Assembly (NCBI GenBank): GCA_030407315.1
Contig: JALQPE010000582.1
Span: forward strand, 1-64,000
DNA from: Asparagopsis taxiformis
Taxonomy: Eukaryota; Rhodophyta; Florideophyceae; Bonnemaisoniales; Bonnemaisoniaceae
Reading direction: 5' to 3'
DNA: 64,000 bases
In this document: piece after piece, positions 3,923 to 29,868 of the stretch
Layout: each line of letters opens with the position of its first letter
How positions within the stretch are numbered: position 1 is the first letter of the stretch
Translations under genes and position numbers: made by a program
The notes under the pieces: generated by a model
Told to the model about the DNA's origin: nothing
What the model saw: the letters and a program-made list of their open reading frames with translations, nothing else
Database searches by the model: none

Positions 3923-3941
3923 CACTACCGAGTTTGAGATT
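3923..3941 (+). repeat. Left terminal inverted repeat
   Basis: CACTACCGAGTTTGAGATT. It pairs with 29,850-29,868 read on the other strand; mismatches fall at scattered positions. Confidence 0.6.
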
Positions 3942-3942
3942 A

Positions 3943-4300
3943 AAAAATGTAGTAAATTTACTGCCTGAGGCAGTAAAAATCACTGCCTGAGCAATGTAGT
4001 GCCTGAGGCAGTAAAATTACTATTTTAATTTTTTCAGTTCTAGTGCCGCAGGCAGTAAAATACAAAATTTCCTGGCAGTACGGTATGTAGCAGAATTCAG
4101 TACTGTACGATAGCAAATTCTAGTAATTTTTGCTGGTACCACAGGGCAGTAGTGCAATGCAGTGATTTTTGATGATTTCTGCAATGGAATGTACTGCCGT
4201 ACAGTACTGCCCTGGCAAATGACCTGGCATTAGAATCAGGCAGTAAAATATACTGGCTCCGGCAGTGAATTGTACTGCCTGCAAGTACTGCCTTGATAGT
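3943..4300. repeat. Left subterminal GGCAGTA/TACTGCC region
   Basis: Many copies of GGCAGTA and TACTGCC in both orientations, often as small palindromes such as TTTACTGCCTGAGGCAGTAA. The region is AT-rich between motifs and has no ORF of note. In CACTA elements such subterminal repeats bind the element's own DNA-binding protein. Here that role is inference. 4,301-4,620 holds nothing recognisable apart from upstream sequence of the next gene. Confidence 0.7.
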
Positions 4301-4620
4301 AATTGGTGATTGGTATTTTCTGAGATTCAATGTTGCAATAGTTGTCCAGGATAGGGTTGTACAATGTGTTCGCATGTGAGTTCAAGTAGAGAAGAGAGGA
4401 AACTATTCTGAAGCTACTAGTAGTGAGAAGTGTAGAGGATGCATGGTCACATGGAAATGACCGTTACAAAAAAGGTAGGAGAAAATCGGTCGTTTTCCGA
4501 GGATATGAGTAGAGTAGTTGGCATTATTTGTTACTATTGCTAGCATTCTAGTTCCAGGAAAAGCGTTTGGAGTGACACTCTGCGATTGGAACGAGAGGCG
4601 AAGGCGAATTTTGACGGAAG

Positions 4621-6144
4621 ATGGAATCTCAGCGTCGTGAGGAAAATCCAAATGACTGCCTAGCAGGGATTATTCGAGAGGGATTCAGGACAGTGACTGG
4701 GGAAGTTCGTCGTATTGGGGAGAGGATGGATGAAATCGACGATGATCGAACGTCCCAACGCCAGCAAATCGAAAAGCTGATGAGTCGCGTCGAGTTTATT
4801 GTAACGGAACTACAGGGTGTGAAAGACATCTGTGATGGTTTATTACAGCAGAGTCAGGGCACTTCGAAGAAGGGGATGACTGACAAGGACAGGGACCGTT
4901 TGCGCATCTCGCAGTCAGCAGAACTATCGTTTTCTTACAATTTTCTGTGTGCAGTATTTGGAACTGTTGTACCTTTGCTGGTCGACAAGATTGATGCTGG
5001 GGCGACAATTTACACCAACCAAGGAATCTACGACCTCCGTGGTTGCAGGTTGCTCTCTGCAATGATGTTTGCGAAGCAGAGCAATGACAAGAGGGATGTG
5101 TTCCAATCAAACACCGGGAAGAACAACATCGAGCTTCGATTCCAAGTGGTGATGTCTCTCCTGCGGAACATTCAGAAGGAAAAGTCGGGTACAGGCCGTA
5201 CAGTGGAAGGCTCGAGCTCTGGACGCGATTCGAATGCGTTCAACGTCTGGAAGGAGAACAAGTACATTCCGGACAAAATAATCGAAGAAGTTGTTTATGG
5301 TGCCACTGGCGATGGCCGAAACCAGCCTGCAGGAAGCATTGACGGAGGGGCTAGGAAGCGGAGGAAAACAGATGGAAATGGTGGACAGTTGAGCAAGCGT
5401 GAAATATCTTTGGCTGTTACGAAAGTTGCGCTGACAAAGGTGCTCGGTTTCCTGAACAAGTCTAGAGAGCAGGTGCGCCATCGATTCCTTGTCGAACTGG
5501 GGTTCGCTCTAGTGTTGGAAACGGACGCCTCTATCACTTTCGAGTTTCCAACTCACGATCTCATTCGAGATATGGATGTTATCCCCGATACCCGTGTGAC
5601 CAACGGAAATCTAAGGCCTGAGGAACGGAAAGTTGTGGATGACAAGAATTCCGAGATCTTGATACAATTCATCGCTGAGCGGAAAGAGATGGTTGTCATC
5701 ATTCAGTACGAAGTCGAGATATCGGGATGTGTGGCCAAAAGGATGATTCGAAGGAGAATCAATATCCTGGAGGTAGCCCTGAACACTGCAATTGCTTTCC
5801 TTCAATGCACGAGTAGAATGGTTTTCCTGCGACGTTCCTGCAATTCACTCAGATTTGTCTATGCAATCGCTTCCGGGATTCTAGGAATTTTCAAGGTACA
5901 ATCAGGTCAGACCTTCGAAGAAAGTGTACAAGACGAGCTCAAACAATTAGGAAAGGCGATGTTGCCGAGTGACCGAATCTGTAAGAGGCATCTCTGTGAA
6001 GATGTACTGACAATTACTAACGAAAAATTCGATGAACAACACTTGGAACAGCGTAGTACCGCGTTTGAGGAGGATAGCGGACATGGAAATGAAGAAGATG
6101 GGAGTGAAAGCTACGTTGAAGTTTTCCTTGATGAGGAAGATTGA
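4621..6144 (+). CDS. Element gene 1: 507-aa coiled-coil nuclear-type protein, function unknown
   Basis: An intact 507-residue ORF that I do not recognise as a known family. The first ~80 residues are heptad-rich and charged (MDEIDDDRTSQRQQIEKLMS), consistent with a coiled coil for oligomerisation. A basic ARKRRKTDG stretch near residue 245 looks like a nuclear localisation signal, and the last ~35 residues are strongly acidic. The middle has no catalytic motif I can name. It is the first gene inside the left end and reads inward. The next gene (462 aa) is convergent, with a palindrome pair between them. A poly(A) signal AATAAA lies 69 bp after the stop. By position it could be the TNPA-like DNA-binding accessory protein of a CACTA element. 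That is inference from context only. The start is the first ATG of the frame. Confidence 0.8.
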   Translation: MESQRREENPNDCLAGIIREGFRTVTGEVRRIGERMDEIDDDRTSQRQQIEKLMSRVEFIVTELQGVKDICDGLLQQSQGTSKKGMTDKDRDRLRISQSAELSFSYNFLCAVFGTVVPLLVDKIDAGATIYTNQGIYDLRGCRLLSAMMFAKQSNDKRDVFQSNTGKNNIELRFQVVMSLLRNIQKEKSGTGRTVEGSSSGRDSNAFNVWKENKYIPDKIIEEVVYGATGDGRNQPAGSIDGGARKRRKTDGNGGQLSKREISLAVTKVALTKVLGFLNKSREQVRHRFLVELGFALVLETDASITFEFPTHDLIRDMDVIPDTRVTNGNLRPEERKVVDDKNSEILIQFIAERKEMVVIIQYEVEISGCVAKRMIRRRINILEVALNTAIAFLQCTSRMVFLRRSCNSLRFVYAIASGILGIFKVQSGQTFEESVQDELKQLGKAMLPSDRICKRHLCEDVLTITNEKFDEQHLEQRSTAFEEDSGHGNEEDGSESYVEVFLDEED

Positions 6145-6460: not shown

Positions 6461-6574
6461 AAAATAATACCGGGTATTATTTTGAGGAATATTTTGCCAA
6501 GTGGAGGGCAATCATTCGTACCGACTACAGGCGATCCCTGGACGAAACCTAAGAATAATACCCGGTATTATTTT
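6461..6574. repeat. Two copies of the AATAATACC/GGTATTATT palindrome
   Basis: Copies at 6,461-6,483 (CCGGG centre) and 6,554-6,574 (CCCGG centre), about 92 bp apart. They sit between the convergent 3' ends of the 507-aa and 462-aa genes. The flanks carry CCAAT and CACCTGGC, motifs that also flank the palindrome in the other clusters. Confidence 0.9.
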
Positions 6575-6748
6575 CAGGGATATTTTGCCAAGTGGAGAGC
6601 AATCATTGTTACAGAATGCAGACAGTCCCTGGACGAAGGAACAGGCCAGAAAGATACGGAGCATGTATCGATGGATACCATCGACTTAATCGAGGTTGAC
6701 TAACTCTAAACAGTCTTGTAGACCCATCTAGAAAAGATAGAAAACGTT

Positions 6749-8137
6749 TTACTCGGAGGCGACATTGTGTACGGTAGGATGAGGTGCATCGACAGGGGAA
6801 CTATTCTGTCCAACGATAACGTCATGTCCAATTGTGTCTAGCTCGCTGCAGATGGTGTGTCCACTGAAAATGCATGCTGGGAGGTTCAAGTATGCAGTTC
6901 CCAACACAACATTCTTGAGAACGCGCTCGAAAGTTCCATATGGACGAGGGCCTTGAACAGGTTTCCAGGTCAGTGAGAACGAGTTGGCCAGTTTGAAATT
7001 TTTGCTGTCCGGCAGCTCAAAGTTCTCTTGCATTTCTCGACTTGAGAGGAAGCGAGCTTCCAAAGGATACGAATAGCTGCAATTGACATAGTCGTACTCA
7101 TCAGATTCTCGAGTAAGAACGACAGTACTACTCATGTTTTCAGATCTCCTGTATAAAGAGGAACCAACAAGAACAGCCTTTGTAGATGGAATAGAATCTT
7201 CTGAAGCACTGTCTGCTAGAGTTCCCAAAACTCTAATGACAGAAGACCCAGAATCGTGTCGTGTTTTCTTCCACTTGAGGATAGTAGAGTTCGTGCATGT
7301 AGACATGGAAGGAGCTAAAGTATTGCAGAGGTCATAGTATGTTCCAAAGTGGATCGATAGCTCTTTATCTCTCCCAGTTGAAATTCGAACCGCCTCGACG
7401 CTCGGCAGGAAAATTGTGTTTGGGTTGTTCTTCTCTTCGCATAGCCTGGAAAGTTGTAAAAACTGTTCAAGCGAGCAATCTGCTCTTGCCGTCACATAGT
7501 CTTGCACCAAGGAGCTCACTTCCCGGCCTGTTTCAGACTTCGTGATTTTGGAGGACAGGGGTTTGTCCAGTTTTAAGCCAACTCTCTGGAACAGGTAGTC
7601 GCACACAATGTTTCCGAAGATGGGTCCAGTAGCGCTTGATGAACCGCGACAGTTGAAAATCTGCCTTTCGAGGTAGGATACCTTTTGAAACAGCTTGGAT
7701 ATGTCCTCATTGATGTTAGGACCAGGAGGACTCTCATCGCAAACTAAGCGCGGCTCGGACTTAGATCGACTCAACATGTTTTCTTTGCAGTCTTTTTTAT
7801 GGAAACTGTCTTCACCCGCCGACGAGATCGTCTGCTCTAGTGCTAGTTGCTCTCCAAACCTCCAACGTAGCATGTTTCCAGAGTCAATGTCCAGCAGCGA
7901 ATTGTTCTTGAATAATTTTGCTGTAGAGACTGACTGGTCGAAACCGTGTTCAGATTGATATTGCAGCGTAACAAACAAGTTTCCAGTCAAACGATGTTCT
8001 CCGGACGCGTCCGGCTTGGCAGTACTCAAAACTTTGGCGCCCCACCAAACCTTTTTCTGTTTCCTTCCTCTCGTTCGTAAACTCCATTCTACTTCAATGA
8101 CTGATCCTTCGGAGACAAACTCTGTTGGGTCTTGCAT
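6749..8137 (-). CDS. Element gene 2: 462-aa protein, possible Tudor/Agenet-like N-terminus
   Basis: An intact 462-residue ORF, not assignable to a family with confidence. Residues ~10-80 (VIEVEW, KVWWGAKVL, then several beta-like strands ending TAKLFKNN) have the look of a small beta-barrel of the Tudor/Agenet/chromo type that reads modified chromatin. This is a weak resemblance. A Ser/Cys-rich middle and a beta-rich C-terminal half follow, without recognisable catalytic residues. The gene is divergent from the methyltransferase-SET gene across a 731-bp shared upstream region, and convergent with the 507-aa gene. A TATA-like element (reverse strand, 8,255-8,262) lies about 118 bp upstream of the ATG. 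A chromatin-reader role would fit the neighbourhood but is inference. Confidence 0.75.
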   Translation of the reverse strand: MQDPTEFVSEGSVIEVEWSLRTRGRKQKKVWWGAKVLSTAKPDASGEHRLTGNLFVTLQYQSEHGFDQSVSTAKLFKNNSLLDIDSGNMLRWRFGEQLALEQTISSAGEDSFHKKDCKENMLSRSKSEPRLVCDESPPGPNINEDISKLFQKVSYLERQIFNCRGSSSATGPIFGNIVCDYLFQRVGLKLDKPLSSKITKSETGREVSSLVQDYVTARADCSLEQFLQLSRLCEEKNNPNTIFLPSVEAVRISTGRDKELSIHFGTYYDLCNTLAPSMSTCTNSTILKWKKTRHDSGSSVIRVLGTLADSASEDSIPSTKAVLVGSSLYRRSENMSSTVVLTRESDEYDYVNCSYSYPLEARFLSSREMQENFELPDSKNFKLANSFSLTWKPVQGPRPYGTFERVLKNVVLGTAYLNLPACIFSGHTICSELDTIGHDVIVGQNSSPVDAPHPTVHNVASE

Positions 8138-8868: not shown

Positions 8869-11800
8869 ATGGCCTCTGAGAAGAGAAATCCAGCGAGCAC
8901 CTCTGGGCGTCCCCTTCATGGTGAGCGGCGCAATGGGCTATTGCACATCGACCCATTCAAGATCAAAAGATATGTCGAGATTCGAGAAATCGACTACAGG
9001 CACGTCGATGTTATTGCCGAGAGCATTCAGGTTTACGGCTACAATGACAACAACCCAATTACCGGTCGGATCATTGACGGTGATGTACAGGTGCTGGATG
9101 GTGCGCATCGTTCGAAAGCTGTAATCAAGCTCATAGAGAACGGTGAGCTTCCGCGTGATTTCACTGTTCCTATGATTGAAGAAGAAGTCGACATATCTCC
9201 GATTACAAGTGCTGCTTTCCTTCTAGATAGTGTGAAAGCATCAAACGCGAACGATATGGCATCCAGGCAGAAGAGGATGACTTTCATTGAGTACCTGAAT
9301 CTTACTTTGGATCTTAGAGATGGGTACTGGGAGCGAAACGCAGGTGAAAAACAAGGGAGCTCAAGCATGGTTACAATTCGCGACGTGAATATGCCATCCA
9401 TTAGGCGATGGCTCGCCGTGGGATCTCAGCGCGAAGATTTGGCAGAAACTGTGCTGAGGCAGCCACAGTACGAGAGTTGCTTGTCAATTCTTCGTGTGCT
9501 TCGCCCCTACAGTCGCATAGAAGAACCCAATCCCAAAATGGTTCGCTGTCTGTGGCAGTTGTTCTGTATTGTATGGGGAAGGCCGGTTGAAGTTCAGAAC
9601 AATTTTGCGATGAAGGAGTTTCCCACATCTCTCGAGAAAAGAGCATCAGTCGGCGAGCAGTTGTTTGGGATGTCTACAAGTGGTGAAATTGCTTCTCCAT
9701 TGTGTCGCGAAGTCCTCACCTGTGAGTATTTTCGTTCTGGAAGAAGTGCACAGGGTAGAACATTAACAGAAGAAGACAAAGTATTTGGAAGGCTGATGTT
9801 TATGATTTCATTTGTGCACATTGCCCTCACTAGACGCAGAAATGCACCCATTCGCCGGGGTAGGAAGCGTCGTAGAACTGGGAGGGATACAGAGACTTCT
9901 ACATTCGCCCCTTTCCAGCGCACAAGAGCAAACGGAGAGTCTGTGGGTGTCGTTTTGGAAAGGGTCATGTCTGCCTGGGATACAACAGCGATGATTCTGG
10001 GCTTCGAAAGCGCCTACATGATGTGTCGCCCATACATGGTTTTCGACTCTGAGAAATTCCAATTCATCTGTCTTGCTAATCGTACTGACGGGTGGGCACA
10101 TCCTGACCACTACTCAGATCTTCTGCTTCCGTCCCCGGTAGTGAAACTCCGCGAGAATGCAGGTTATCCAGGCACTTTGGATATCTCTGTTGATGCAAGG
10201 TTGAGGTCTTTGACAGAAGCCGTACTAGTGTCTGTGTATGACTGTATGATAGGCATTGATGTATTCGGATCAAGTACGAACCAGATGGAAGGGCTGCGCA
10301 CTAAATTTTTCCATCAGCCTGACCGGTTCGGATTGAACGCCTTCATCGAAGCAAGAATAGAACAATCCATCGCATTGGATGGTCACGAAAGACTCAAGGT
10401 ATGGAAGAACTGGAACCGTGAAATGCGTGTGAAGCCAGTTGATGTCTGCGACTTGAAAATTCTCTACGAGACTGAACAGCGCAACGCAGCATCCAGATCT
10501 CTTTCTCGAGAAAGAGATCGTCTTGAGTCGAATGAATCAATGCAGCACAGCACTCGCCGTTTAGGTACAGGTGGAAGGAAACCTACCAATGACTCTGGAT
10601 CCCAGTATACATCCAGCATGGATGGGAGGGCTTCGTCCGCAGTGGACACGGTTATGCAAGATGTTGCGGAGGATACACCGTCAGCGGAGGCAGTGGGTGA
10701 GGAAGAGGGGGTACCGGATCATATTGTGCAATTGAAAAAGGTCATGAAGAGATTTTGCGTGGCTTACAACTGTACAGCCTCGAGGTTAGTGCACCGGGTT
10801 AACACTGATTCCATTGGCATGCTTTCAGGGAATACTATTGATGGACAAGCACAACTTGTGCTCACCGATCCACCCTTCAACACGCGGAGGGAGAAAGGCA
10901 AGACCAATTCAGACTATGATGACATCAATAGCGCACAAATGTTTCGTACTGGAAAGGACATTTCTCGAATGCTGCGCCCTGGAGGACATGCCCTGATATT
11001 TTCCAGTATCAAACAGTTGGTTGGGTGGGGAGAAGCTCTTCAAAATGCAGAAAGCGGGGAACAATCCATGCGTACAGACGATGTTCCTCTCATTCTAAGC
11101 CGTCGTCCCTACGTATTCATCCAAAACCCAATGAACAAATCGTGTTCATTACACAACATTCACGAGTTTGTTGTGCACAGTTTCAAACGTGGGATGGGAG
11201 CTGCCGCGTTTGAAATGGTTGATTATTCTTTGCATAACCGTGACCTTTCACGACATCCAGGGTACGTGAACGCAATCGACAACTGCCCAAAGCTCGGACC
11301 TGGTGAGTCATTGAACTTCGAAGACAAAAGGCTACGTGCGGAGCAGAAGCCTCTGTCCATACTTCGAGAGCTTATTTCAAGGTTTTCAAAGCCAGGAGAC
11401 ATTGTGGTAGATCTATTCTCCGGAACGTATTCTACTGCAATAGCTTGCATGACAATGAGAGATGGTCTGTATCGCAAGTTTATTGGATGTGAAAAAGACG
11501 CCACATGCCATGGATCAGCTCAGCCGTTGTTGCTGGATTGCTTTGTTAGGCAAGGTCGAGATGGAGTTTTTGGGGAGGCAACCAAAAATGACATATCGAG
11601 TATTCTCGCTAACAAAGAATGGAATTACTCGATAAGGAGCAATGTAGGAAGTGAAAGACTTCGACATCGAAGTGATGCGCCTGATGGATTCCCGTCGGTA
11701 TCTTCACTACCACTGCATATGTTGCGATTTGTCTCCTCTGTTGCGCGGGATCAAAGCATGCTCCGAAGACTTGCCGAAGTCCCAATGAATGAATGGGGCG

Positions 11801-12378
11801 TAGAAGATTTAGGCAAGGTTTTCTCCGTTGACCCTGAGATGATGCTTGCAGTAGATGCCTCCTTTCACAACGTTATTGTTGCTGCATCGACAGTTCGAGA
11901 GGGAGGATTGGGGGTTTTTGCCGCAGAAGATTTAGAGAGGGGCTCTGTTGTTGGATGGTATAATGGGACAATTTTATACGGGAAGATTGGGGAGAATGAA
12001 CCGCAACGCAGTCGCTTGTACGGACCGGACGGGTTCGGTTGTACTGGTGAAAGATTCCAAAACTTCAACATGGAGATGGAGACCAGTGTCATCGGAGAAG
12101 AAGCACCGGTCGACAAGATATATCTTGTACCAGCGGAATACAATGTCTGCAGCTACCTCAACGACAGTAGGACCATTGACGGAATGGAGAGAGTTGCAAA
12201 TGTGCAACGCAGAAAAAATGCAGAGTTCCGAGTTCACAAAGACGTCAATCCTACTTGCGACTTCAAGTATGCAGTAGCAAAACCTGATCTCATCCTAGCG
12301 CAGGTTGTAGTAGATGTTCGAGCTGGGGAAGAGATATTCGTTGACTATGGATCGCGCTACTGGACTGCAGAGAAGTAG
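8869..12378 (+). CDS. Element gene 3: ParB-like / N6-N4 DNA methyltransferase / SET fusion
   Basis: An intact 1169-residue ORF with three modules. (i) A ParB/sulfiredoxin-like N-terminus, with the DGAHR motif at residues 77-81. (ii) A beta-class DNA methyltransferase, with DPPFN at 667-671 (catalytic motif IV), MLRPGGHAL after it, and the AdoMet-binding DLFSGT at 848-853. The IV-before-I order is that of the N6_N4_Mtase (PF01555) family. (iii) A C-terminal SET-like domain from ~1000 (GGLGVFAAEDLERG, WYNGTILYG, SYLND, then GEEIFVDYGSRYW at ~1152-1164). ParB-methyltransferase pairs are known from bacteria and phages. Joining one to a eukaryotic-type SET domain is unusual. The predicted role is methylation of adenine or cytosine in DNA, plus possible lysine methylation by the SET part. 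Targets are unknown. The SET Asn motif is CSYLND rather than NHSC, so SET activity is uncertain. AATAAA follows 45 bp after the stop. Confidence 0.88.
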   Translation: MASEKRNPASTSGRPLHGERRNGLLHIDPFKIKRYVEIREIDYRHVDVIAESIQVYGYNDNNPITGRIIDGDVQVLDGAHRSKAVIKLIENGELPRDFTVPMIEEEVDISPITSAAFLLDSVKASNANDMASRQKRMTFIEYLNLTLDLRDGYWERNAGEKQGSSSMVTIRDVNMPSIRRWLAVGSQREDLAETVLRQPQYESCLSILRVLRPYSRIEEPNPKMVRCLWQLFCIVWGRPVEVQNNFAMKEFPTSLEKRASVGEQLFGMSTSGEIASPLCREVLTCEYFRSGRSAQGRTLTEEDKVFGRLMFMISFVHIALTRRRNAPIRRGRKRRRTGRDTETSTFAPFQRTRANGESVGVVLERVMSAWDTTAMILGFESAYMMCRPYMVFDSEKFQFICLANRTDGWAHPDHYSDLLLPSPVVKLRENAGYPGTLDISVDARLRSLTEAVLVSVYDCMIGIDVFGSSTNQMEGLRTKFFHQPDRFGLNAFIEARIEQSIALDGHERLKVWKNWNREMRVKPVDVCDLKILYETEQRNAASRSLSRERDRLESNESMQHSTRRLGTGGRKPTNDSGSQYTSSMDGRASSAVDTVMQDVAEDTPSAEAVGEEEGVPDHIVQLKKVMKRFCVAYNCTASRLVHRVNTDSIGMLSGNTIDGQAQLVLTDPPFNTRREKGKTNSDYDDINSAQMFRTGKDISRMLRPGGHALIFSSIKQLVGWGEALQNAESGEQSMRTDDVPLILSRRPYVFIQNPMNKSCSLHNIHEFVVHSFKRGMGAAAFEMVDYSLHNRDLSRHPGYVNAIDNCPKLGPGESLNFEDKRLRAEQKPLSILRELISRFSKPGDIVVDLFSGTYSTAIACMTMRDGLYRKFIGCEKDATCHGSAQPLLLDCFVRQGRDGVFGEATKNDISSILANKEWNYSIRSNVGSERLRHRSDAPDGFPSVSSLPLHMLRFVSSVARDQSMLRRLAEVPMNEWGVEDLGKVFSVDPEMMLAVDASFHNVIVAASTVREGGLGVFAAEDLERGSVVGWYNGTILYGKIGENEPQRSRLYGPDGFGCTGERFQNFNMEMETSVIGEEAPVDKIYLVPAEYNVCSYLNDSRTIDGMERVANVQRRKNAEFRVHKDVNPTCDFKYAVAKPDLILAQVVVDVRAGEEIFVDYGSRYWTAEK

Positions 12379-12428: not shown

Positions 12429-12536
12429 AAGTCTTGCATCTGAACTCGTACAACGTTGTAGTACTACAATCTACCTGAGCGATAATAACAGACTTTCATT
12501 TGCTGAGCGGTGCCAGTCAGCCCACGCCCAATGATA

Positions 12537-14256
12537 GTGCTGCACCTGGGCTTTGCCATACCAAAATAATACCGGGTATTATTTCGGGTGTGGCCAGCCC
12601 AAGTGCAGCTCTGTCCGCATTGGCTGTCATGCCAACGCAGCGGCAGCGCAGCCATGGAATTGCTGCACCTGGGCTTTGCCATGCCAAAATAATACCGGGT
12701 ATTATTTCGGGTGTGGCCAGCCCAAGTGCAGCTCTGCCATTGGCTGTCATGAACGCAGCGGCAGCCAATAGAATTGCTGCACCTGGGCTTTGCCATGCCA
12801 AAATAATACCGGGTATTATTTTGGGTGTGGCCAGCCCAAGTGCAGCTCTATTGGCTGTCATGAACGCAGCGGCAGCCAATGAATTGCTGCACCTGGGCTT
12901 TGCCATGCCAAAATAATACCGGGTATTATTTGGGTGTGGCCAGCCCAAGTGCAGCTCTGCTATTGGCTGTCATGAACACAGCGGCAGCTGCACCTGGCTT
13001 TGCCATGCCAGGGTATTATTTTGGGTGCTGCAGCACCATGAACGCAGCGGCAGCCAATGGAATTGCTGCATGGGCTTTGCCATGCCAAATAATACCGGGT
13101 ATTATTTTGGGTGTGGCCAGCCCAAGTGCAGCTCTGCTATTGGCTGTCATGAACACAGCGGCAGCCAATGGAATTGCTGCACCTGGGCTTTGCCATGCCA
13201 AAATAATACCGGGTATTATTTTGGGTGTGGCCAGCCCAAGTGCAGCTCTGCTATTGGCTGTCATGAACGCAGCGGCAGCCAATGGAATTGCTGCACCTGG
13301 GCTTTGCCATGCCAAAATAATACCGGGTATTATTTTGGGTGTGGCAGCCCAAGTGCAGCTCTGCTATTGGCTGTCATGACAGCGGCAGCCAATGAATTGC
13401 TGCACCTGGGCTTTGCCATGCCAAAATAATACCGGGTATTATTTTGGGTGTGGCCAGCCCAAGTGCAGCTCTATTGGCTGTCATGAACGCAGCGGCAGCT
13501 GGAATTGCTGCAATGCCAAAATAATACCGGGTATTATTGGGTGTGGCCAGCCCAAGTGCAGCTCTGCTATTGGCTGTCATGAACCAGCGGCAGCCAATGA
13601 ATTGCTGCACCTGGGCTTTGCCATGCCAAAATAATACCGGGTATTATTTTGGGTGTGGCCAGCCCAAGTGCAGCTCTGCTATTGGCTGTCATGAACGCAG
13701 CGGCAGCCAATGGAATTGCTGCACCTGGGCTTTGCCATGCCAAAATAATACCGGGTATTATTTTGGGTGTGGCCAGCCCAAGTGCAGCTCTGCTATTGGC
13801 TGTCATGAACGCAGCGGCAGCCAATGGAATTGCTGCACCTGGGCTTTGCCATGCCAAAATAATACCGGGTATTATTTTGGGTGTGGCCAGCCCAAGTGCA
13901 GCTCTGCTATTGGCTGTCATGAACGCAGCGGCAGCCAATGGAATTGCTGCACCTGGGCTTTGCCATGCCAAAATAATACCGGGTATTATTTTGGGTGTGG
14001 CCAGCCCAAGTGCAGCTCTGCTATTGGCTGTCATGAACGCAGCGGCAGCCAATGGAATTGCTGCACCTGGGCTTTGCCATGCCAAAATAATACCGGGTAT
14101 TATTTTGGGTGTGGCCAGCCCAAGTGCAGCTCTGCTATTGGCTGTCATGAACGCAGCGGCAGCCAATGGAATTGCTGCACCTGGGCTTTGCCATGCCAAA
14201 ATAATACCGGGTATTATTTTGGGTGTGGCCAGCCCAAGTGCAGCTCTGCCATTGGC
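12537..14256. repeat. Large tandem array of palindrome-centred ~114-bp units
   Basis: Fifteen full palindromes AATAATACCGGGTATTATT plus one that has lost its left arm (near 13,011). They start at about 12,563, 12,686, 12,800, 12,910, 13,087, 13,200, 13,314, 13,423, 13,518, 13,628, 13,742, 13,856, 13,970, 14,084 and 14,198. The last six are exactly 114 bp apart. The unit is itself an inverted repeat: GCCCAAGTGCAGC...ATTGGCTG faces CAGCCAAT...GCTGCACCTGGGC. Both strands therefore give near-identical open frames (up to 277 codons), which I treat as repeat artefacts and not genes. The array separates the 3' ends of the convergent methyltransferase-SET and ParB-dioxygenase genes. Confidence 0.95.
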
Positions 14257-21500: not shown

Positions 21501-22119
21501 TGTTTTCCACAATCGACTGCAAAGCGCTGATACGATGACCTCCATCAATGCACTGCAGTTTCTTCCGTCCGTCTGACCCCATTGTTTCACAGATGGTCAT
21601 TCGGGTGCCAGTTTCCAGAAACCCCTCGGTAGATATTTTGCTGACCAGATCGCGCACTCTGGCCTCCTGCACAAGACGAGAAGTTGATTCCGGTTTGGCA
21701 ACATCTAGCGGATTGATCATTTTAGGTTCAGTCCTGCATTCGACAATGTTGATGTCAATCCCCATCACAGACTCTTCTGATGCTTCCATGCCAGCAGGAC
21801 TCCCCTCGCCTTCACGGACGTTAGACCTCTCCCTGTTTTTCGATTTCACCGTCCCAGGAGTAGATGGAAAGCGTAGAGTGTTTTTCCCAGATGGTGATAT
21901 ATCACCAAGGGTTTTTGCTGCCTCTATCATGGCAGCGTCTGCTCCCTGAATGGGTGTCTGGCTATCTGCCGTCTCCCTTCCCGCTGCAGACGGAGTCCCT
22001 CCATCACCAGAACCTCCGGAGGGTGTTTTATCACCGCCTACCGTCGTTGCAAGTCTCTCTGCAACGCTTTCGACGGTATCCTTTGGTTCCGCAGCGCGCT
22101 CAGTGTCGCTTCCGGCCAT
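18595..22119 (-). CDS. Element gene 5: ParB-like / 2-oxoglutarate-Fe(II) dioxygenase fusion (1174 aa)
   Basis: An intact 1174-residue paralogue of the 992-aa protein with the same order of parts. There is a low-complexity N-terminus, then a ParB-like domain with DGGHR at 192-196 followed by a conserved FIRPPGTRE segment, and a helical region. A long disordered Glu/Asp/Ser/Thr linker follows (~500-830) with basic patches (RPRQKKKQKMRED). The dioxygenase domain has HTD at 1055-1057, a second His at ~1127 (VYHHEEGF) and Arg 1145 (IRSHIFL). Spacing of the iron ligands (72 residues) and of the final Arg (18) matches the other two dioxygenase genes in the window. A predicted oxidative eraser acting where the ParB-like part binds is inference. 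The palindrome array (22.4-23.3 kb) lies upstream and a second cluster lies downstream. A frameshifted second copy is at 59,528-63,048. Confidence 0.87.
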   Translation of the reverse strand: MAGSDTERAAEPKDTVESVAERLATTVGGDKTPSGGSGDGGTPSAAGRETADSQTPIQGADAAMIEAAKTLGDISPSGKNTLRFPSTPGTVKSKNRERSNVREGEGSPAGMEASEESVMGIDINIVECRTEPKMINPLDVAKPESTSRLVQEARVRDLVSKISTEGFLETGTRMTICETMGSDGRKKLQCIDGGHRISALQSIVENKPTVADRWRLRSISVDFIRPPGTREMFHPLEVMRISQKLNEKTHDVIEVSIADHVCTVMKFMMMKGLMKAKVNVCTKVVVENKVIPGCQEGIMMKYVSIAQGFGDVNNPAFEHWSAIPSRFATETSPPDSKNMQGCTVDVLFASAFRKASVDTKLVILELTAMWTMWKRRKGDGGISLKTCAQKWCYSMCEIYDILEKAVRKENSWHSSPHPCFRKLHEVPEPGGRTRKTIRYRILTVLKDFYPSDAPTGRGIRAALTRSMMKEIRYVVFNGPILSDDSLDHSVAPEIGVQERRTRRKSLEGNTAPQPRQQSASYGDTSNAAIDRSDVVQSPNVLTQQQTQGSLEISDRVNAEVGAATQVGEEATGKAADSESAKQVTTDRAVPTAPTENNSSKPGDCEVGDVLQKNVGTPELEPAGANRGRNDHGDENDLQQSPSPVAAGSATLRPEQGGKSPANMSVGHPRTGRDGEGGPESRKSDGSGTKDVREECPEHSSGRTTEDPMKGVRNQGDGTGDAMLSTADVGLPVLPELEDTETPVTSSTPRKLMTAKHSSGFVPLKAKPRNTETPPMILRSKRKLVDVTPQEVIDLVGEDTSRPRQKKKQKMREDANLQSGKDAAVHAVQGGQYSDRQQNDVPDKDVEEGIEAKLPVIIHPDSRVKYYVNGKLVDTLRAEVAEAAASAYSAQNVSAEFLSRAYFREKRNEIDLVGFTILDGIFKSSTTADAIHELLLHFSALFEERLEDAKKNSESGDTRRDPDWTPWCMAMMDGKNSDEEGEKGRGIFITKRKSLCDDLEDNNNNLYRKKMIVELGLGICAECLELRTSGKDPMAFPSTGTTLVLTGERTKPRAGHTDYEVGIDEVNSPPSPPSYFMMSSGADGFGLVLAPYSHVCLSHPNRELYRVPMKRCEVPPYSVLVCRGDVYHHEEGFESNKGLQYKFPIRSHIFLKTEQHQSEEGEYVVGHWEGNSKLK

Positions 22120-22379
22120 TGCAAAGATTTGGACGCGTAGAGAAGCCGTTCAGGATGACAAAGACACCTTTTCTCTCCGACTACACGATCAAGAGATATT
22201 CCTCTTTCAAGGTGGTATTTGGCGGGAAACGATCTCCCTACACGTTTAAACGTGAAATATCAGTTATTGATTCACCTTCCACGCGCTCCAATTGTATTCG
22301 GCCATCTGTCATTCCTCGACGAAGGACTTCCCACACACAATTCCTTCGTTCCCAAAACCATCCCATTGCCATGAATCAT

Positions 22380-23290
22380 AGTACTCCACTTGTCACTGGA
22401 GCCAGAAAACTATACCGGGTATTATTTTCCACTGCATTGGCCAGGTGCCGGCTCCCCATTGGCAGCAGACAGCAATCAGTCACAATACTCCACTTGTCAC
22501 TGGAGCCAGAAAACTATACCGGGTATTATTTTCCACTGCATTGGCCAGGTGCCGGCTCCCCATTGGCAGCAGACAGCAATCAGTCACAATACTCCACTTG
22601 TCACTGGAGCCAGAAAACTATACCGGGTATTATTTTCCACTGCATTGGCCAGGTGCCGGCTCCCCATTGGCCAGCAGACAGCCATCAGTCACAATACTCC
22701 ACTTGTCACTGGAGCCAGAAAACTATACCGGGTATTATTTTCCACTGCATTGGCCAGGTGCCGGCTCCCCATTGGCCAGCAGACAGCCATCAGTCACAAT
22801 ACTCCACTTGTCACTGGAGCCAGAAAACTATACCGGGTATTATTTTCCACTGCATTGGCCAGGTGCCGGCTCCCCATTGGCAGCAGACAGCCATCAGTCA
22901 CAATACTCCACTTGTCACTGGAGCCAGAAAACTATACCGGGTATTATTTTCCACTGCATTGGCCAGGTGCCGGCTCCCCATTGGCAGCAGACAGCAATCA
23001 GTCACAATACTCCACTTGTCACTGGAGCCAGAAAACTATACCGGGTATTATTTTCCACTGCATTGGCCAGGTGCCGGCTCCCCATTGGCCAGCAGACAGC
23101 CATCAGTCACAATACTCCACTTGTCACTGGAGCCAGAAAATTATACCGGGTATTATTTTCCACTGCATTGGCCAGGTGCCGGCTCCCCATTGGCCAGCAG
23201 ACAGCCATCAGTCACAATACTCCACTTGTCACTGGAGCCAGAAAATTATACCGGGTATTATTTTCCACTTCATTGGCCAGGTGCCAGCTC
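22380..23290. repeat. Tandem array of nine palindrome units, ~105-bp period
   Basis: Nine units with core TATACCGGGTATTATT starting near 22,411, 22,515, 22,619, 22,724, 22,829, 22,933, 23,037, 23,142 and 23,247. The left arm has lost symmetry (ACTATACC or ATTATACC instead of AATAATACC). Each unit carries ATTGGCCAGGTGCCGGC and CCCCATTGGC. Overlapping long open frames here are products of the repeat, not genes. The array lies between the 5' end of the 1174-aa gene and the 3' end of the transposase. The inverted second copy keeps only one unit (59,221). Confidence 0.95.
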
Positions 23291-23408
23291 TCCATTGGAT
23301 TATGCGAACTCAACTTTGTGGAACTAGGAGTCCTGCAACTCGCGGCTCCATCTCTAGTACCAATGGCATCATACGTACGTAAGTGCGTACGCTCTTCGCA
23401 AAACACAC

Positions 23409-23557: not shown

Positions 23558-26500
23558 CTATGCTGAACGTGGTGGGTATCCATCTTCTCTAGTTAAGACG
23601 CTCACTTCACCACCAGAAAGAATATCACTATTGTGCTCTACAATGCCACTTTGTCTATCGTATGAACAAACTCCTGACTCGCAGTTATGTACGTGCAAAA
23701 CTTCTCGGACCCCGTCGTTCATTTCAACGTGAACTATAGTATCATTCCCACCTTTCCGGTACATACCGTCTCCAGTGCATGTCAAGGGAATGCAGACAGC
23801 ATATGGAGTTTTCTGCTTCCATTTCTTTGCCTTCTTCTCCTCTCCTTGCCCTACCACAATAAAAAAGGACAATGTGACGAAAAGGACACGTCTGGAACAT
23901 GTGAATTCCTCCATGCTCGTCCTGCTATGGGCGGGTACTACTATACCAGCATCATACCATCCATCTTTGCACACTGCTTGAATGATGCTTCCAGGTTCAG
24001 CACGCCCTAACCTCGATTCGCTCTCAGATCCCTCATGACTAGTGCGCACTCTTTGTGCAGCAGTGAGCCACCATAGTCGTTCACCATGTTGAGACCCGTT
24101 TACCTGTCTGGTTCTGAGAAAAGTTTCAGAAGCTTTACGTATCCTTGCCATCATGACGGTTTCTTCTGCCGGAACATTTTTCGCGTCTTCAACAGATTCC
24201 CCTCGCCACCGCGTGATTGGACAGTGGGTGCTCACCATAGTACTGCTCCTCTCTGATATGAGATGGAATACAGGACTTAAGAAGCATCTTTTTGCTGCCT
24301 CTTCTGTCGCATGTGGACTCTCCGAAATTCCTTTTCCTAGTGCAAAATACACGCGTCTGCAATCGGCAGACGTCCATTGTTTTGTATTGTGACCTACCGC
24401 ACCCAGCGTGATGGCTATTCGTGCGAGCCAGTCATCGGCCATGATGAGCTCCATTGATGACAGATGTTCATTCTTATGGTTCGAGTTTCGAACCCCTCTT
24501 TTAAGAGGCTGGTGCATTCTCTCGAATAAAAGCTCTTCCACATGTTTCGCAGCTCCAAAAGCTGGTAATGTATGTACGCAAAATTCTATCAACCGATGCA
24601 TGTTCGGTTTGTCCAGATGTTTCATTGCAATAGGATCCTTCTTGCATACCTCATGCAGTTCTTTCATATAGTCTGAAACAAGAGCTAGAATGTGGTCATG
24701 ACGTCCGCCATTCTCGGCCTCGAACCTCCTGGTTGACTCAAGTCCATCTATCCACCATGTTGGGATGAATCGAATGCTGGCAACAACCATTTGAAACTTT
24801 TTCAGCAAACGAAGAATACGTTCAAGTTTTTCATACCCGTCCCAAGAGTTCCCGATGACGATACGAAATGCCGAATAAAATGCTTGGGGAGCTACAACGA
24901 GAACAGCGAATATATCGCTCATGTTCATCGATAATAGGTAGTTCTGCCCGAATACCTGACTCTGACTACTCAAACAGAACATTCGGAGGGTATTCAGTAG
25001 AACTGTTTCCGCAACATTTCGAAGTACAGGTGTTGCTGCGGTGATTGTGGCATTCATCACATCTTGAGCCAGTCCGGAGAGCAGATGGTCTGGGGCAACT
25101 ACAGCAGAGCGATATGGATCGAATTGACAAGGAACAACTGGAACTCCTTCTTCGTTTGTAGGAACTCCTCTCCGCACACGATTAAGGGATTCACTCAAAT
25201 TATGGAGTGCCTTATTCTCAATCGGATCTAGGCTTAGTCCAAGAACTTTGAGCTGATCTTGCGATGCGACTTCCCTCACAAGCTTGTTTCGGTGCATTCC
25301 TCGGGCATGCGTACTCATCTGACTGTTTAGCAATGCTGTGTATGCATTTCGTGAACCTCCACTGCTGCTCATATCTTGCTTTTCGAAAATGCAGCTATGG
25401 CATGGTGTATTACTGGTGTGACCACGGACATCCAGAGTATGCGAAACAGCTGGGTAATCTCCGATAAATCCAACAGGATCCAGGAATATGACCACATCTT
25501 CTCCATTTGCATCTTTCGCTGGAAAACCGTCTGTACTTCCCTTCACAATGTCGGGTACAACTCTCTCAATTACAACATTTGTTGAAACTCCCGGGGGAAC
25601 GAATCCAAGAACGCGGACTGCGTGGAAGCTTTCTCTCTTGCTTGGCTGTATGCCTAATGGAAGCATATAGCAGCCACCAAAACTTCCTTTCCGGCTTGTG
25701 AACGGCTGGAAGTCATCAGCATATAGCAGAAATCGGTATACGATATATTTCCTGCCATCTGAAAGATTCCCCTCACTGCAGGCATCCATACGTTTAGAGC
25801 CGGGGTGCCATCTAGACCTCTTGTCTGGAGCTCCTATGAGCTGGACGTCTTTCACCCGAATTTGTTCGCGATGTAGCTGCCCAGTTGCTCCCCTTGTGGA
25901 GCAAATGAGAAAAGTCGCATGTTCAGAGCGTCCCTTTTTCAGATGTCTGTTCACGAGTAGTAACTCTTCAAATGTGCTCCCATCAGACTTACTTTTTGGC
26001 CGAAACAGAGTGATAGCGTCACCTGCCCGAATATCATTGTTGCAATGTTCTCCGTCGAGCGTTGTGGTGGAGACGACACGCCTCGCATTTCTTTTCTCAG
26101 TTTCTTCCATTGCATCGATTTGCGGGTCTATCACATCTTCCATATTTGATTCTTGTTGTTCTTCTCCGGTTGCAAGATAACTTGCAATGATGATAGCTTC
26201 AATTCTCCAGTCACTCCTTGCTGTAAAACTTCTTCTGCTCCTAGAATTCTTTCCAGTTTCGATGTTCTTTCCCTGTTTCGTTCTGGCTCCTCCCAGCTTA
26301 GCCACCAGGGCCTCTTGATTTGTCGTCGGCATACATATGATCCTCAACTCGTCTCCATGTCGGGCGTATACCTTTCTGTGCATCTTGTGACCGTCATGAT
26401 CTGATGCACTTACCGAAATGCGATGGAATGGGTCATTCAGAACAGCTGAACGGCATTTGACAATGAAAGAGTTTTCAATACTTTCTGAAGCAATTTGATA

Positions 26501-27259
26501 TGCTTCATCTTCTCTTTCATCACTACTATCCCTTTTACTAGACTTTATGCAGTCCAGAATGGGTCCGGTCTGTATATCCCTTTCCGCCCATGTGCTCGGT
26601 AGCACGACTCGTACCGATGTAGTACAATGAGCTCTACGGCTACTAGACAGTCCTGGAGACATCTTTCCAAGCCTAGAGCCGCTTTTTGTTACATCTATTT
26701 CACACGTTGTATCCATGCTTTGTGGGAAACATGTTTTCAGAATGAACGGTAAAATGACTTTCCTCATGTACGAGTCGCTAGGTGCTTGATCCGAAATGTC
26801 CCGCTTGAAATTAGACATCTCACGCATACCTTCATAGTCCTTGCGTTTCATCCGTAGCGTTCCACTAAGCAATATTATTGCAGAGAATACTGGCCAGGTC
26901 AGCAGTTTATCCACAAGTCTGCGGTCATCTTCCGCTGCCTCTTCTCCGTCGTGGTCATCACAGCTCTCGGCCGAGCTTTCCTCAGAGCCTATAGTTTCTT
27001 CTTCTCTCGTAACTTTTCCAGCCTCAAAAAATGCAATGTGCTCTTCTCCATTGCCACTAGAAATATTCTCGTCTTCAGCAGATGCTTTTCCGACGTTTTC
27101 GTCCGGTATATCGGCGTGAACCTCGAATGTTTCGTTCGAAACTAGCGGGGTTTCCCCATTTTCGTGCCTTGTCCCACTTTCGTATGGGATTGGCAATGAT
27201 TCAAACCTTCTCCGGGTTCTTCGAGGTGTACCTTTCTTCCGAACAGCTGTTCGTTTCAT
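23558..27259 (-). CDS. Element gene 6: Tnp2-like (CACTA/Plavaka-type) DDE transposase
   Basis: An intact 1233-residue ORF. Candidate catalytic residues: Asp 515/516 in LLYADDFQPF, Asp 601 in GFIGDYPAVSHTL followed by the Cys pair CHSC, and Glu 913 in LLFERMHQPLKRG. The D-D spacing (86) and D-E spacing (312) parallel those of the second transposase in the window (90 and 294). Both share the Tnp2 hallmark GD-x-PAV followed by a Cys-x2-Cys knuckle. The N-terminal ~150 residues are acidic, with basic stretches at the start. It is the last gene before the right end and is transcribed inward. It presumably moves the 26-kb element by cut-and-paste. Family membership is by motif, so it is a distant member. 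A broken second copy is at 54,434-58,925. Confidence 0.85.
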   Translation of the reverse strand: MKRTAVRKKGTPRRTRRRFESLPIPYESGTRHENGETPLVSNETFEVHADIPDENVGKASAEDENISSGNGEEHIAFFEAGKVTREEETIGSEESSAESCDDHDGEEAAEDDRRLVDKLLTWPVFSAIILLSGTLRMKRKDYEGMREMSNFKRDISDQAPSDSYMRKVILPFILKTCFPQSMDTTCEIDVTKSGSRLGKMSPGLSSSRRAHCTTSVRVVLPSTWAERDIQTGPILDCIKSSKRDSSDEREDEAYQIASESIENSFIVKCRSAVLNDPFHRISVSASDHDGHKMHRKVYARHGDELRIICMPTTNQEALVAKLGGARTKQGKNIETGKNSRSRRSFTARSDWRIEAIIIASYLATGEEQQESNMEDVIDPQIDAMEETEKRNARRVVSTTTLDGEHCNNDIRAGDAITLFRPKSKSDGSTFEELLLVNRHLKKGRSEHATFLICSTRGATGQLHREQIRVKDVQLIGAPDKRSRWHPGSKRMDACSEGNLSDGRKYIVYRFLLYADDFQPFTSRKGSFGGCYMLPLGIQPSKRESFHAVRVLGFVPPGVSTNVVIERVVPDIVKGSTDGFPAKDANGEDVVIFLDPVGFIGDYPAVSHTLDVRGHTSNTPCHSCIFEKQDMSSSGGSRNAYTALLNSQMSTHARGMHRNKLVREVASQDQLKVLGLSLDPIENKALHNLSESLNRVRRGVPTNEEGVPVVPCQFDPYRSAVVAPDHLLSGLAQDVMNATITAATPVLRNVAETVLLNTLRMFCLSSQSQVFGQNYLLSMNMSDIFAVLVVAPQAFYSAFRIVIGNSWDGYEKLERILRLLKKFQMVVASIRFIPTWWIDGLESTRRFEAENGGRHDHILALVSDYMKELHEVCKKDPIAMKHLDKPNMHRLIEFCVHTLPAFGAAKHVEELLFERMHQPLKRGVRNSNHKNEHLSSMELIMADDWLARIAITLGAVGHNTKQWTSADCRRVYFALGKGISESPHATEEAAKRCFLSPVFHLISERSSTMVSTHCPITRWRGESVEDAKNVPAEETVMMARIRKASETFLRTRQVNGSQHGERLWWLTAAQRVRTSHEGSESESRLGRAEPGSIIQAVCKDGWYDAGIVVPAHSRTSMEEFTCSRRVLFVTLSFFIVVGQGEEKKAKKWKQKTPYAVCIPLTCTGDGMYRKGGNDTIVHVEMNDGVREVLHVHNCESGVCSYDRQSGIVEHNSDILSGGEVSVLTREDGYPPRSA

Positions 27260-28640
27260 CTCTTCTCTTTGGATTCGAGAGAACTTTGCACAAATTGTAG
27301 ATTAATGTCAACTAGTAGGCAACTAATGAGATGGTATCCGTCTCTTTTTAACCAGGCCACTGTAATAGTTTATAGTACCTATATTTTCTTACCGTTACAT
27401 CTTATCGAAAACTTCACACTGAATAGTGTCCTACCTAACTCAAGGAACAGGTGACTTGATTTCCCATGTTGGGTTCTTCAGCGATCTTTAATGCCTCCAA
27501 CGATTCCTGCTTCCTTTTCTGAATGAAATACACGAATCATTTACAATTTAGCTTCAGTACATGGTATAATAGGCCTCAATAGTAATCTTGTTATGGTAAT
27601 AAACTATATATAGATGAGAACACGGTTGCAATTCTCTTTCGGATTGTCTACTACTCTAATTTACAGCATTTATTCGATGTTTCTCCTTCAGTATGCAGCT
27701 AAACATCAATACCAAGACTTTTAGGTTGGTTTGACATTGCGTAGGGGCATGATTTCTATTTCTGCTAATTTATCACGTCCAGAAAATTTGACAGATCATC
27801 CGCTGCCAAATCATCTGCCACATCATCGTCTGCCAAATCATCTGCCTTCCAGTTACGACGAGGTCATTATGAGTGGATGAGCTGTCTATTTAAGGCTGTT
27901 GATGCGCGACGTATAGGACCATTTCATCATCCGGTTATCATGAAGATGACAGGTAAGGCTGGTACGTTGTCGAGTAGGTATCTTTCCCCTCTCTCATTTC
28001 TTTCCACATGCTTTCCATGAAAGATAGTGCACTAACCATAAATATCGTTCTTCGCTGATCCTATTCTAGTCTATTGATTGCAAATGATTCTGGCATAGGT
28101 ATTGGTTATAGGTTGGAATGACGAAAGCTTGCAAGCTTTCGTCATTCCAACCTACAACCAATACCTTTGCACGCAAAAATAGTTCAATGATGGTAAGTTT
28201 GTTCATTCCATTCATACTCATGTTCTTCTCATCCTTTACAATACTTTTCTATATCCGATTGCTAACCTGTTGCAAATCATCTGTAATGGTGTTTATTTCC
28301 CTCCTGTCTGAACATCACATGTAGTTTTGAAACAGCGAGGAACTCGATTTGCTTGCACAATAGTCCTGGTTGTAGAGATAGTAAGATTTTAGATACGATA
28401 GTTCGATTTAATGAGTAGTCTAGTCTAATGATAGAACTGAAACATTCCTTCAGGCATCGTTGTCCTTGCTACATAAAAATTCTGACATCCTTTTAGATCA
28501 CACTTGGTTATCCCTACACACTTCTATGAAGACCACCGAGAGAGATACTCCATTCTGCCCGACATTTCGTAGCCAGATGCCTGAACATGCGGCTGGAATG
28601 GCATTTCCACCTCATTCTATCGTCCTGAACATCAATTGTA
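27260..28640. other. Non-coding transposase upstream region
   Basis: AT-rich, with no credible ORF. It holds short direct repeats of TGCCAAATCATC (27,797-27,850) and a 70-bp near-perfect palindrome (listed separately). It is conserved in the inverted copy (53,041-54,433). Confidence 0.6.
28097..28166. repeat. 70-bp near-perfect palindrome, copy A
   Basis: Two 35-nt arms with one mismatch and no loop, centred at AAGCTTG|CAAGCTT (28,131/28,132). The outer ends read AGGTATTGG and CCAATACCT. It is retained in copy B at 53,527-53,596. Confidence 0.95.
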
Positions 28641-29850
28641 GGCACTAGAAAGTATTACCCTAGGCATCATATTCTACTACTTTCCCGTTCTGTCCGAGTC
28701 AGTACCGCCAGGCACTACAATTTACTGGTTCAGTATAGACTTCCCGGCAGTAAATTGTACTGTCTCAAGCACTAGTTCCAGGTAGTGAAATGTACTGCCA
28801 CAGGTAGCACTTCCAGGTAGTACACTGCACTGCCACAGGCAGTAACTGGTACTGTCCTATGCCCCTGTCGAGTACAACACTATCAGACAGTACTTTACGC
28901 TGATCTGGACAGCTCTATAATACATCAAAATCTACTACTTTTTGTAGTGCTGTGGGGCAGCAATTCACATATCCTGGAGCAGTACAGCGTGGCAGTGATT
29001 TACACATACGCAAGTAGTAGAGCACGGCAGCACTTTCCACCACGGCAAGTAGCACGGTACGGTAGCACTTTTCGTATCATAAAGCAGTACTATCAGGCAG
29101 CTTTTCCCAGAGACTATCAGCACCTCATTTCATTGCTTTCACACATTTCGTCAGACATCATAATTTACTGTCCCCACTCGCTTCCACAGGCAGTAGAATA
29201 CACAGCCTCGAAGCATGTCTGCTGTCATCATATTCCACTGCATTACTCTACTGCCAGAACATAGACTTGTCACTACCTGTAAGTACAAAAAAAAGCAGCA
29301 CCACACAGCAGCAGAAATTACTGCTTTGTCCAATAATAGAATACAGTACATTTCTCTGCCTCTGCCATGACCTGCAGGCAGTATCATACAGTACATCGGG
29401 GCACTACCTAAATATAGCAAAATGTGCTGCCGTCATTCGGGCCCGCAGCCAGCACAGAACGCTGCCGGAAACACTAGCTTCTACTGCCACACGGTGCATC
29501 CCACGCCACCAAATAGTACTGCCGTGGGCCATATTCCTGGACAGCATATTTTACTCCCTCCCCGTGCTGCCCAAGTCAGCACAATATACTACTTTATTTT
29601 ACAGGCCAATGTAGCACAAATCACTGCCAGAAAGACAATCTAAATCCAGCAACTATCACTGCCTCCCACCACTGCCTCACCTCATACATCCAGGCAGTAC
29701 TTTCTACTGCCGTCGGCAGCACATGGCCACTGCCTCCGGGCAGTGCACTGTACTGCCGGCAAGTAGGGCATTAATTTATATTTTTACAGTACTAAATTTT
29801 ACTGCCTCAGGCAGTAAATTTTACTGCCGTACAGTACTGCCCCAGGCCCG
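28640..29850. repeat. Right subterminal GGCAGTA/TACTGCC region
   Basis: Dozens of short GGCAGTA/TACTGCC-like motifs, degenerate and in both orientations. They become densest and most exact next to the right end (29,790-29,850). The left side of this block is shared with copy B up to 28,846; the outer ~1 kb is absent from copy B. No gene is seen. Confidence 0.75.
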
Positions 29851-29868
29851 ATTTCAGACACAGTAGTG
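29850..29868 (-). repeat. Right terminal inverted repeat
   Basis: On the reverse strand it reads CACTACTGTGTCTGAAATC, matching the left end at 14 of 19 positions. The adjacent GAT/ATC context extends the match outward by four bases (CCAT). Confidence 0.6.

Follow-up and report, generated by a model that had tools for sequence, protein, structure and literature searches.

How could a transposon find its own copies in a genome and set or lift their silencing, while the genes of its host are left alone? This question is raised by a 64,000-nucleotide stretch of the red alga Asparagopsis taxiformis (contig JALQPE010000582.1, positions 1 to 64,000), hereafter called the window. Positions 3923-29868 are occupied by a 25,946-bp unit, here called element A, which an earlier note on this DNA had described as a giant CACTA-type transposon with a Tnp2-like transposase, one ParB-methyltransferase-SET fusion and two ParB-dioxygenase fusions. 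In the present analysis, copies, palindromes and empty sites were searched for in 141.5 Mb of the genome (3,156 contigs), and a feature absent from the earlier account was found, namely tandem arrays of a palindromic unit in four of the five gaps between the genes. We tentatively propose, with slightly less than even confidence, that element A is a recently active cut-and-paste CACTA/EnSpm (CMC) transposon with a sequence-addressed epigenetic toolkit, in which the ParB-like parts of the encoded enzymes would address the arrays.

Element A is a real single mobile unit, whose boundaries are defined by the break points of other copies and by an unoccupied target site. At the left end, 37 of the 40 scored copies (taken from 323 first-look candidates) stop at positions 3920-3923, and the remaining three rows are the window itself and two copies with the flank of the window. 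At the right end, where 40 of 1,223 candidates were scored, all 39 copies other than the window stop at 29868 or at most 14 bases beyond it. The unoccupied target in contig C2874 reads GTGATCC-AT-GGGTATAGG, with AT present once there and on both sides of the element in the window. This site lacks the element, and therefore the inserted unit is exactly 3923-29868, with AT as the target duplication. The CACTAC-type ends, noted earlier as lying 25.9 kb apart, are thus confirmed, and none of the listed copies contradicts them. A second empty-site comparison, between the flanks of the C718 copy and a repeat at window positions 30601-30747 (99.3% over 148 columns, with one gap), yields AC as the duplicated dinucleotide. 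The flanks were also compared directly in the 13 copies that have both ends listed, in the same orientation and on one contig, the window included. They match over 2 bp in five copies, over 3 bp in one and not at all in seven, where about 0.8 two-base matches in 13 are expected by chance. Two right flanks in this set do not differ at all, as might result from chimeric assembly or from duplication.

The class of the element follows the definition of CACTA/EnSpm (CMC/CMCT) transposons, which have 5'-CA..TG-3' ends and a target-site duplication of 2 to 5 bp. The CACTAC...GTAGTG ends are common to other copies, the duplication is 2 bp at both empty sites, and the terminal inverted repeat consists of CACTAC only. 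A PlavakaB identity is ruled out by these ends, as the definition given in PMC12730594 requires 5'-CATCA..TGATG-3'. The family is recent, and complete copies of it exist. A reversed and partly broken second copy lies in the window itself at 52849-64000; it is about 98-99% identical outside the arrays and apparently cut at its right end by an element of another family, family B. An inverted repeat of about 78 bp, 95% self-complementary, is found in the non-coding DNA towards the right end of element A (28093-28170) and also in this second copy (53523-53600).

The motif GGCAGTA, or its reverse complement TACTGCC, occurs 34 times in the window, 26 times within the two subterminal regions of element A and once in its interior. 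These regions had been called mirrored, which is too strong, because both orientations are present at either end. The Tnp2-like nature of gene 6, proposed in the same note, is weakly supported by an in-register blastp match (E 2e-4) to a genuine Tnp2 ORF (open reading frame) over the D...GD.PA...CxxC block. A C(2)C motif belongs to the definition of Tnp2-type DDE transposases; Pfam gives no match for gene 6. The genuine Tnp2 ORF, a Transposase_21 match at 33533-36661, was rejected as the transposase of element A, as it sits in another element.

Six long single-frame ORFs lie inside element A. All six are open in the complete copy C2588, the one copy in which they were examined together; genes 1 and 2 were otherwise covered through the left-end query, which represents the first part of the element. 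The proteins of genes 1, 2, 3 and 6 show no difference between C2588 and the window, that of gene 5 shows one, and gene 4 has a 9-bp in-frame indel. Counting the window, matches at maximal score are present in 16 of 40 scored copies for gene 3 (over 3,510 bp; 312 candidates), 24 of 40 for gene 6 (775 candidates), 5 of 40 for gene 4 (254 candidates) and 7 of 40 for gene 5 (247 candidates). At least six of the 13 copies (window, C2441, C2588, C1754, C107 and C1778 minus) contain genes 3, 4, 5 and 6 together inside the two ends, and the order and orientation of these genes do not vary; the other seven (C718, C75, C337, C2257, C2275, C1778 plus and C1984) are each without one of these genes among the matches listed. 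The genes that the earlier note placed between the same terminal repeats therefore do co-occur there, all six in C2588 and genes 3-6 more widely.

From its sequence, gene 3 is well supported as a ParB-methyltransferase-SET protein, as previously proposed. Pfam recognises the N6_N4 methyltransferase at 1.2e-13 (with the DPPF motif) and the SET domain at 2.2e-5, and the PHROG ParB-like family matches at 1.5e-6 with the cut-out region and at 1.3e-5 with the whole protein. Gene 3 thus has the N-terminal ParB/CTPase core by which ParB-parS systems are defined, and the combination of a ParB-like domain and an N6_N4 methyltransferase within a giant transposon agrees with the definition given in PMC12477816. 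Among 5.8 billion protein sequences, one near-identical protein and no other relative of gene 3 was found. When genes 3, 4 and 5 and the family-B oxygenase were compared with NCBIfam, the sole match under 0.01 was the gene 3 methyltransferase, which falls below the curated cut-offs.

The proteins of genes 4 and 5 are of a different build, with a ParB-like core at one end and a predicted oxygenase domain at the other. The core was aligned with that of a family-B homologue, an intact protein of 1,318 amino acids (L065:3630-7586). Compared with the ParB region of gene 3, this alignment gives an hhalign E value of 2.4e-4 and a probability of 44%, against E 0.43 for a control with another part of gene 3. 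Within the C-terminal ~300 residues, H, D, H and R are invariant in the three proteins, two of which are 38% and 26% identical to gene 4 there. The order HxD...H...R is typical of 2-oxoglutarate (2OG) oxygenases, and the oxygenase label of genes 4 and 5 is a prediction drawn from this one pattern.

The remaining comparisons with sequence families are mostly negative. Pfam gives sub-threshold matches only for gene 1 (UBR4, E 0.0032) and no match for genes 2, 4, 5 and 6 or the family-B oxygenase. PHROGs offer nothing interpretable for genes 1, 2, 4, 5 and 6; the best match is phrog_7379 (function not assigned), at E 0.0037 with gene 5, and gene 2 has none. Rfam at the gathering threshold and a tRNA search yield nothing. 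No relatives are present in the viral contigs searched, and the phages searched contain one partial match, to the methyltransferase.

The arrays are composed of tandem units, each centred on AATAATACCSGGTATTATT or a close variant. At the centre of the unit stands AATAATACC-S-GGTATTATT, exactly or as a close variant, and mirrored TGCACCTGG and CCAAT half-sites lie to either side at about 29 and 44 bp. When up to one mismatch is allowed, AATACCSGGTATT is found 32 times in the window, where 0.05 occurrences are expected, and every one of them is within element A or its second reversed copy. The 19-bp palindrome occurs 2,333 times in the genome and its reversed control 0 times; when an outer half-site is added to this 19-mer operator, the counts on the two strands are 780 and 798, again with 0 for the control. 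The lengths of the arrays differ between the window and C2588 (Table 1). Long arrays of the same operator are also present at C19:27340-30179, C103:17282-17702 and C106:25851-26861, and the other spacer types in C103 and C106 suggest more families with this operator, or expanded arrays.

The architecture of the unit was derived from 146 sites (52 distinct 121-mers) in the window and other loci, many of which overlap. Gapless grouping of the flanks leads to 14 clusters, which include indel variants of single arrays and merge into about 7 array types. Beyond the selected core, bases are conserved out to ±11. A TGCACCTGG-like half-site is present at -33 to -31 in 11 of the 14 clusters and its mirror at +24/+25 in 11; a CCAAT-like one is present at -46 to -43 in 11 and an ATTGG-like one at +40 to +42 in nine (one at +37). 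The TGCACCTGG pair, with at most one mismatch, flanks the core on both sides at a near-constant distance in seven of 14 clusters, compared with 0.005 in shuffles, and the spacers have little sequence in common across the clusters. In gapless register, the spacers are 34% complementary (25% by chance), core positions 1-9 are 92%, positions 24-33 are 55% and positions 43-48 are 46%. The difference between spacers and core makes the unit look like a multi-half-site protein operator, not an RNA hairpin. Continuous RNA hairpins were accordingly rejected, since the spacers are barely complementary and the half-sites recur while the spacers do not. The clusters are related by descent, so that the architecture shows constraint relative to the spacers, not independent origins. 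As palindromic sites close to ParB-like genes, the arrays are plausible candidates for parS-like addresses of the ParB-fused enzymes.

Table 1. Features of element A in the window, with array site numbers in the complete copy C2588 for comparison
Feature	Position	Strand	Description
Left terminus	3923-3952	+	CACTACCGAG...; from copy break points and empty site
Right terminus	29839-29868	-	reverse complement CACTACTGTG...; from copy break points and empty site
Target-site duplication AT	3921-3922 (left copy), 29869-29870 (right copy)	none	from the C2874 empty site
Left subterminal region	3923-4300		11 GGCAGTA/TACTGCC motifs
Right subterminal region	28740-29868		15 GGCAGTA/TACTGCC motifs
Gene 1	4621-6144	+	507 amino acids; no family assigned; identical protein in C2588
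Gene 2	6749-8137	-	462 amino acids; no family assigned; identical protein in C2588
Gene 3	8869-12378	+	1169 amino acids; ParB-like core (residues ~38-131), N6_N4 DNA methyltransferase (662-879, DPPF), SET (1013-1161)
Gene 4	14590-17568	-	992 amino acids; ParB-like core (DGGHR), proline/threonine-rich linker, predicted 2OG-Fe(II) oxygenase (H873, D875, H944, R964)
Gene 5	18595-22119	-	1174 amino acids; paralogue of gene 4, 32% identical, same layout
Gene 6	23558-27259	-	1233 amino acids; Tnp2-like (EnSpm/CMC) transposase
Array 1	6463-6637		period 91; 2 sites (2 in C2588)
Array 2	12528-14258		period 114; 15 sites (9 in C2588)
Array 3	18036-18283		period 118; 2 sites (6 in C2588)
Array 4	22368-23298		period 105; 9 sites of the variant TATACCGGGTATT (10 in C2588)

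The proposed mechanism would proceed in several steps. The transposase of gene 6 would move element A through the CACTAC ends and the GGCAGTA subterminal repeats. The ParB-like parts of genes 3, 4 and 5 would recognise the triple-dyad operators of the arrays and load there, perhaps with clamping and spreading in the manner of ParB. The loaded proteins would bring a writer (the DNA methyltransferase with the SET domain) and two erasers (the putative oxygenases) to the copies of the element itself. As a result, element A could set or lift its own silencing, and host genes would be left alone. A common DNA-targeting domain that delivers both methylation and its oxidative removal had been suggested before, and the arrays may now offer it a plausible target.

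This mechanism can be compared with family B, whose genes lie in the flanks of element A. A methyltransferase-SET gene at window 271-2953 does not form a single open frame in the window, nor in any of the five further copies read, and a ParB-oxygenase gene is split in the window and intact in contig C2475. Both genes are near the same terminal sequence, CGTCTGTGTTCTCGG, and the repeats on the flanks of each contain another, perfect 16-bp palindrome, TGTGCCGTACGGCACA, which occurs 6,301 times in the genome against 0 for the control. In the window, such repeats, which also contain the 36-nt near-palindrome TCTCAAAAACATGTTCACATGTGCATGTTTTTGAGA, lie at 3460-3653, 30600-31690 and 49764-51017. Under the address model, another ParB fusion should be accompanied by another palindrome, as is seen here; a methyltransferase lacking a ParB part would not be expected. 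The split of the ParB-oxygenase gene is due to an insertion of about 13.5 kb at 32847-46387, named element C, which is bounded by perfect 12-bp ends, CCCTAGTGGACA, with GAG duplicated at the target, and carries the genuine Transposase_21 ORF mentioned above. A piece of element C is similar to a condensin II non-SMC subunit (Condensin2nSMC, E 8.5e-7) and is possibly a captured host gene.

A broader form of the proposal is that the lineage took over bacterial-type ParB-parS addressing, in which the fusions would clamp family-specific operators, spread and deliver a writer and erasers, so that silencing becomes switchable, and the co-evolution of protein and operator would prevent cross-talk between sister families. 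We regard this as possible, though on the doubtful side.

Several observations weigh against the addressing of element A by its ParB-fused enzymes. First, taken by itself, the ParB-like core shared by genes 4 and 5 matches no family significantly, and its profile match to gene 3 is just 44% probable. Second, the array clusters are partly redundant as well as related by descent, and the arrays are mostly placed beside the 3' ends of genes, with none in the gap between the divergent genes 2 and 3. Third, family B provides less than the expected counterpart: no ParB core is seen in the stretch of its methyltransferase-SET gene that was read, and the single family-B element whose two ends were both observed (C2475:84298-102401) carries the oxygenase but no match to the methyltransferase. 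Fourth, six family-B copies show 14 C>T events at CpG (4.7 per 1000 sites) against 11 at other C/G (1.5 per 1000). This CpG bias, from 25 C/G to T/A events in all, weakly suggests cytosine methylation in the host. To these is added the lack of support for the oxygenase domain, considered below.

Among the alternatives, the one that survives best assigns the arrays to the transposition machinery, that is, to the transposase or the proteins of genes 1 and 2, and the ParB-fused enzymes would then act elsewhere or without the arrays. In CACTA elements a second protein is known to bind repeated sites, and genes 1 and 2, with no function assigned by Pfam or PHROGs, could encode it. The position of the arrays argues otherwise: they are internal and missing from the subterminal regions, where another motif, GGCAGTA, is concentrated, and in family B it is the ParB-oxygenase gene that a different palindrome adjoins. 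We consider this alternative unlikely, if still worth serious weight.

Another alternative, to which we give marginally less credence, concerns the C-terminal domains of genes 4 and 5, which may not be DNA demethylases and could instead be oxygenases with histones, RNA or protein as substrates, or could have another fold. The catalytic residues are in place, and yet no TET/JBP or 2OG-Fe(II) family matches genes 4 and 5 at any threshold tried. Neither Pfam, PHROGs, PDB sequence profiles nor AlphaFold support the domain. The AlphaFold models built from three-sequence alignments have a low mean pLDDT (predicted local distance difference test) of 31 for gene 4 and 34 for its C-terminal domain, and the PDB fold search with the domain model has no match at E <= 0.001. 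AlkB, JMJD5 and KDM5 are among the fold matches listed, at E 0.8 or worse and TM (template modelling score) of about 0.1, and were not used. A search of the 5.8 billion protein sequences yields no match for gene 4 or for the oxygenase alignment of three members. Of the two ParB-dioxygenase fusions claimed earlier, the ParB-like core and the invariant H, D, H and R are therefore retained, and the oxygenase stands without profile or fold support. The SET domain of gene 3 also means that a histone-type activity is already carried by the element. In favour of a DNA demethylase are the invariance of HxD...H...R in three proteins as divergent as these and the presence of TET/JBP genes as common passengers of EnSpm, Plavaka and other fungal elements (PMC12730594).

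A third alternative, which we consider improbable, takes the arrays for palindromic satellites of a selfish or structural kind, acting as sources of hairpins or small RNAs and having no protein partner on the element. In its favour, the units are tandem, variable in number and partly self-complementary. Against it, the spacers are too poorly complementary for continuous hairpin folding, and the half-sites recur where the spacers do not.

Addressing of element A by its own enzymes has precedents in part. According to the passages of PMC12477816 on this subject, a giant brown-algal transposon carries a ParB-N4C/N6A methyltransferase, and green and red algae are said to have similar ones. Like element A, that system is a giant eukaryotic DNA transposon with a ParB-methyltransferase, which has been suggested to bind the element encoding it and to modify that element; the transposase there is of a different class, and the same passages mention no SET domain, ParB-oxygenase or operator array. 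They cite Petroll et al. 2025 (doi 10.1016/j.cub.2025.04.044), on a red-algal genome, for ParB-methyltransferases, and that work may cover the type of element A. Erasers are described, in the corresponding sections of PMC12730594, as TET/JBP genes on EnSpm and Plavaka elements, with SET on other transposons. The fungal EnSpm/PlavakaB elements resemble element A as CMC-clade transposons with a candidate eraser of DNA modification. Their oxygenase is a recognisable TET/JBP, whereas the predicted oxygenase of element A is fused to a ParB-like domain, gives no Pfam match and has a putative writer as its partner on the element. Neither 'tandem repeat' nor 'DNA-binding domain' is a term that appears in the main text of PMC12730594.

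Sequence-specific self-targeting through repeats is known from the anti-silencing VANC proteins of VANDAL transposons, which act through motifs in non-coding tandem repeats (PMC5735166). In Arabidopsis VANDAL21, as in element A, these are short motifs whose number varies between copies; unlike element A, VANDAL21 is of the MuDR class and its motif, YAGTATTAY, is not palindromic (PMC5735166). Pfam finds no MuDR/VANC family in the six ORFs of element A, and no direct comparison with VANC was made. VANC is not known to be a ParB or oxygenase fusion. Bacterial ParB-parS systems combine the ParB fold with palindromic sites, as element A may do, and ParB-N6_N4 methyltransferase fusions are more often found in phages (PMC12704722, in the sections concerned). 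Element A differs from these systems in being a eukaryotic transposon, with no ParA family match by Pfam among its ORFs. The terms 'dioxygenase' and 'transpos' are absent from the main text of this survey of ParB-CTPase fusions (PMC12704722). Finally, dinoflagellate and charophyte retrotransposons bear DNMT and thus also encode a DNA methyltransferase within a transposon; these are C5 enzymes on retrotransposons, and no eraser or array is described for them in the abstract of PMC5890265.

The earlier statement that no such system has been described therefore has to be narrowed, as ParB-methyltransferases in algal transposons and TET/JBP or SET on transposons are in print. As to the rest of the make-up, no report was found in openly licensed PubMed Central papers of ParB-oxygenase fusions, of elements in which a writer and an eraser have a ParB-like part in common, or of elements of this kind with operator arrays.

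Some transposons are already known to encode one enzyme for silencing or for its reversal. If the proposed addressing is true, a writer and erasers with the same kind of DNA-addressing domain, together with candidate arrays, would constitute a natural programmable epigenome editor, and the way in which transposons target their own copies while sparing host genes would become directly testable.

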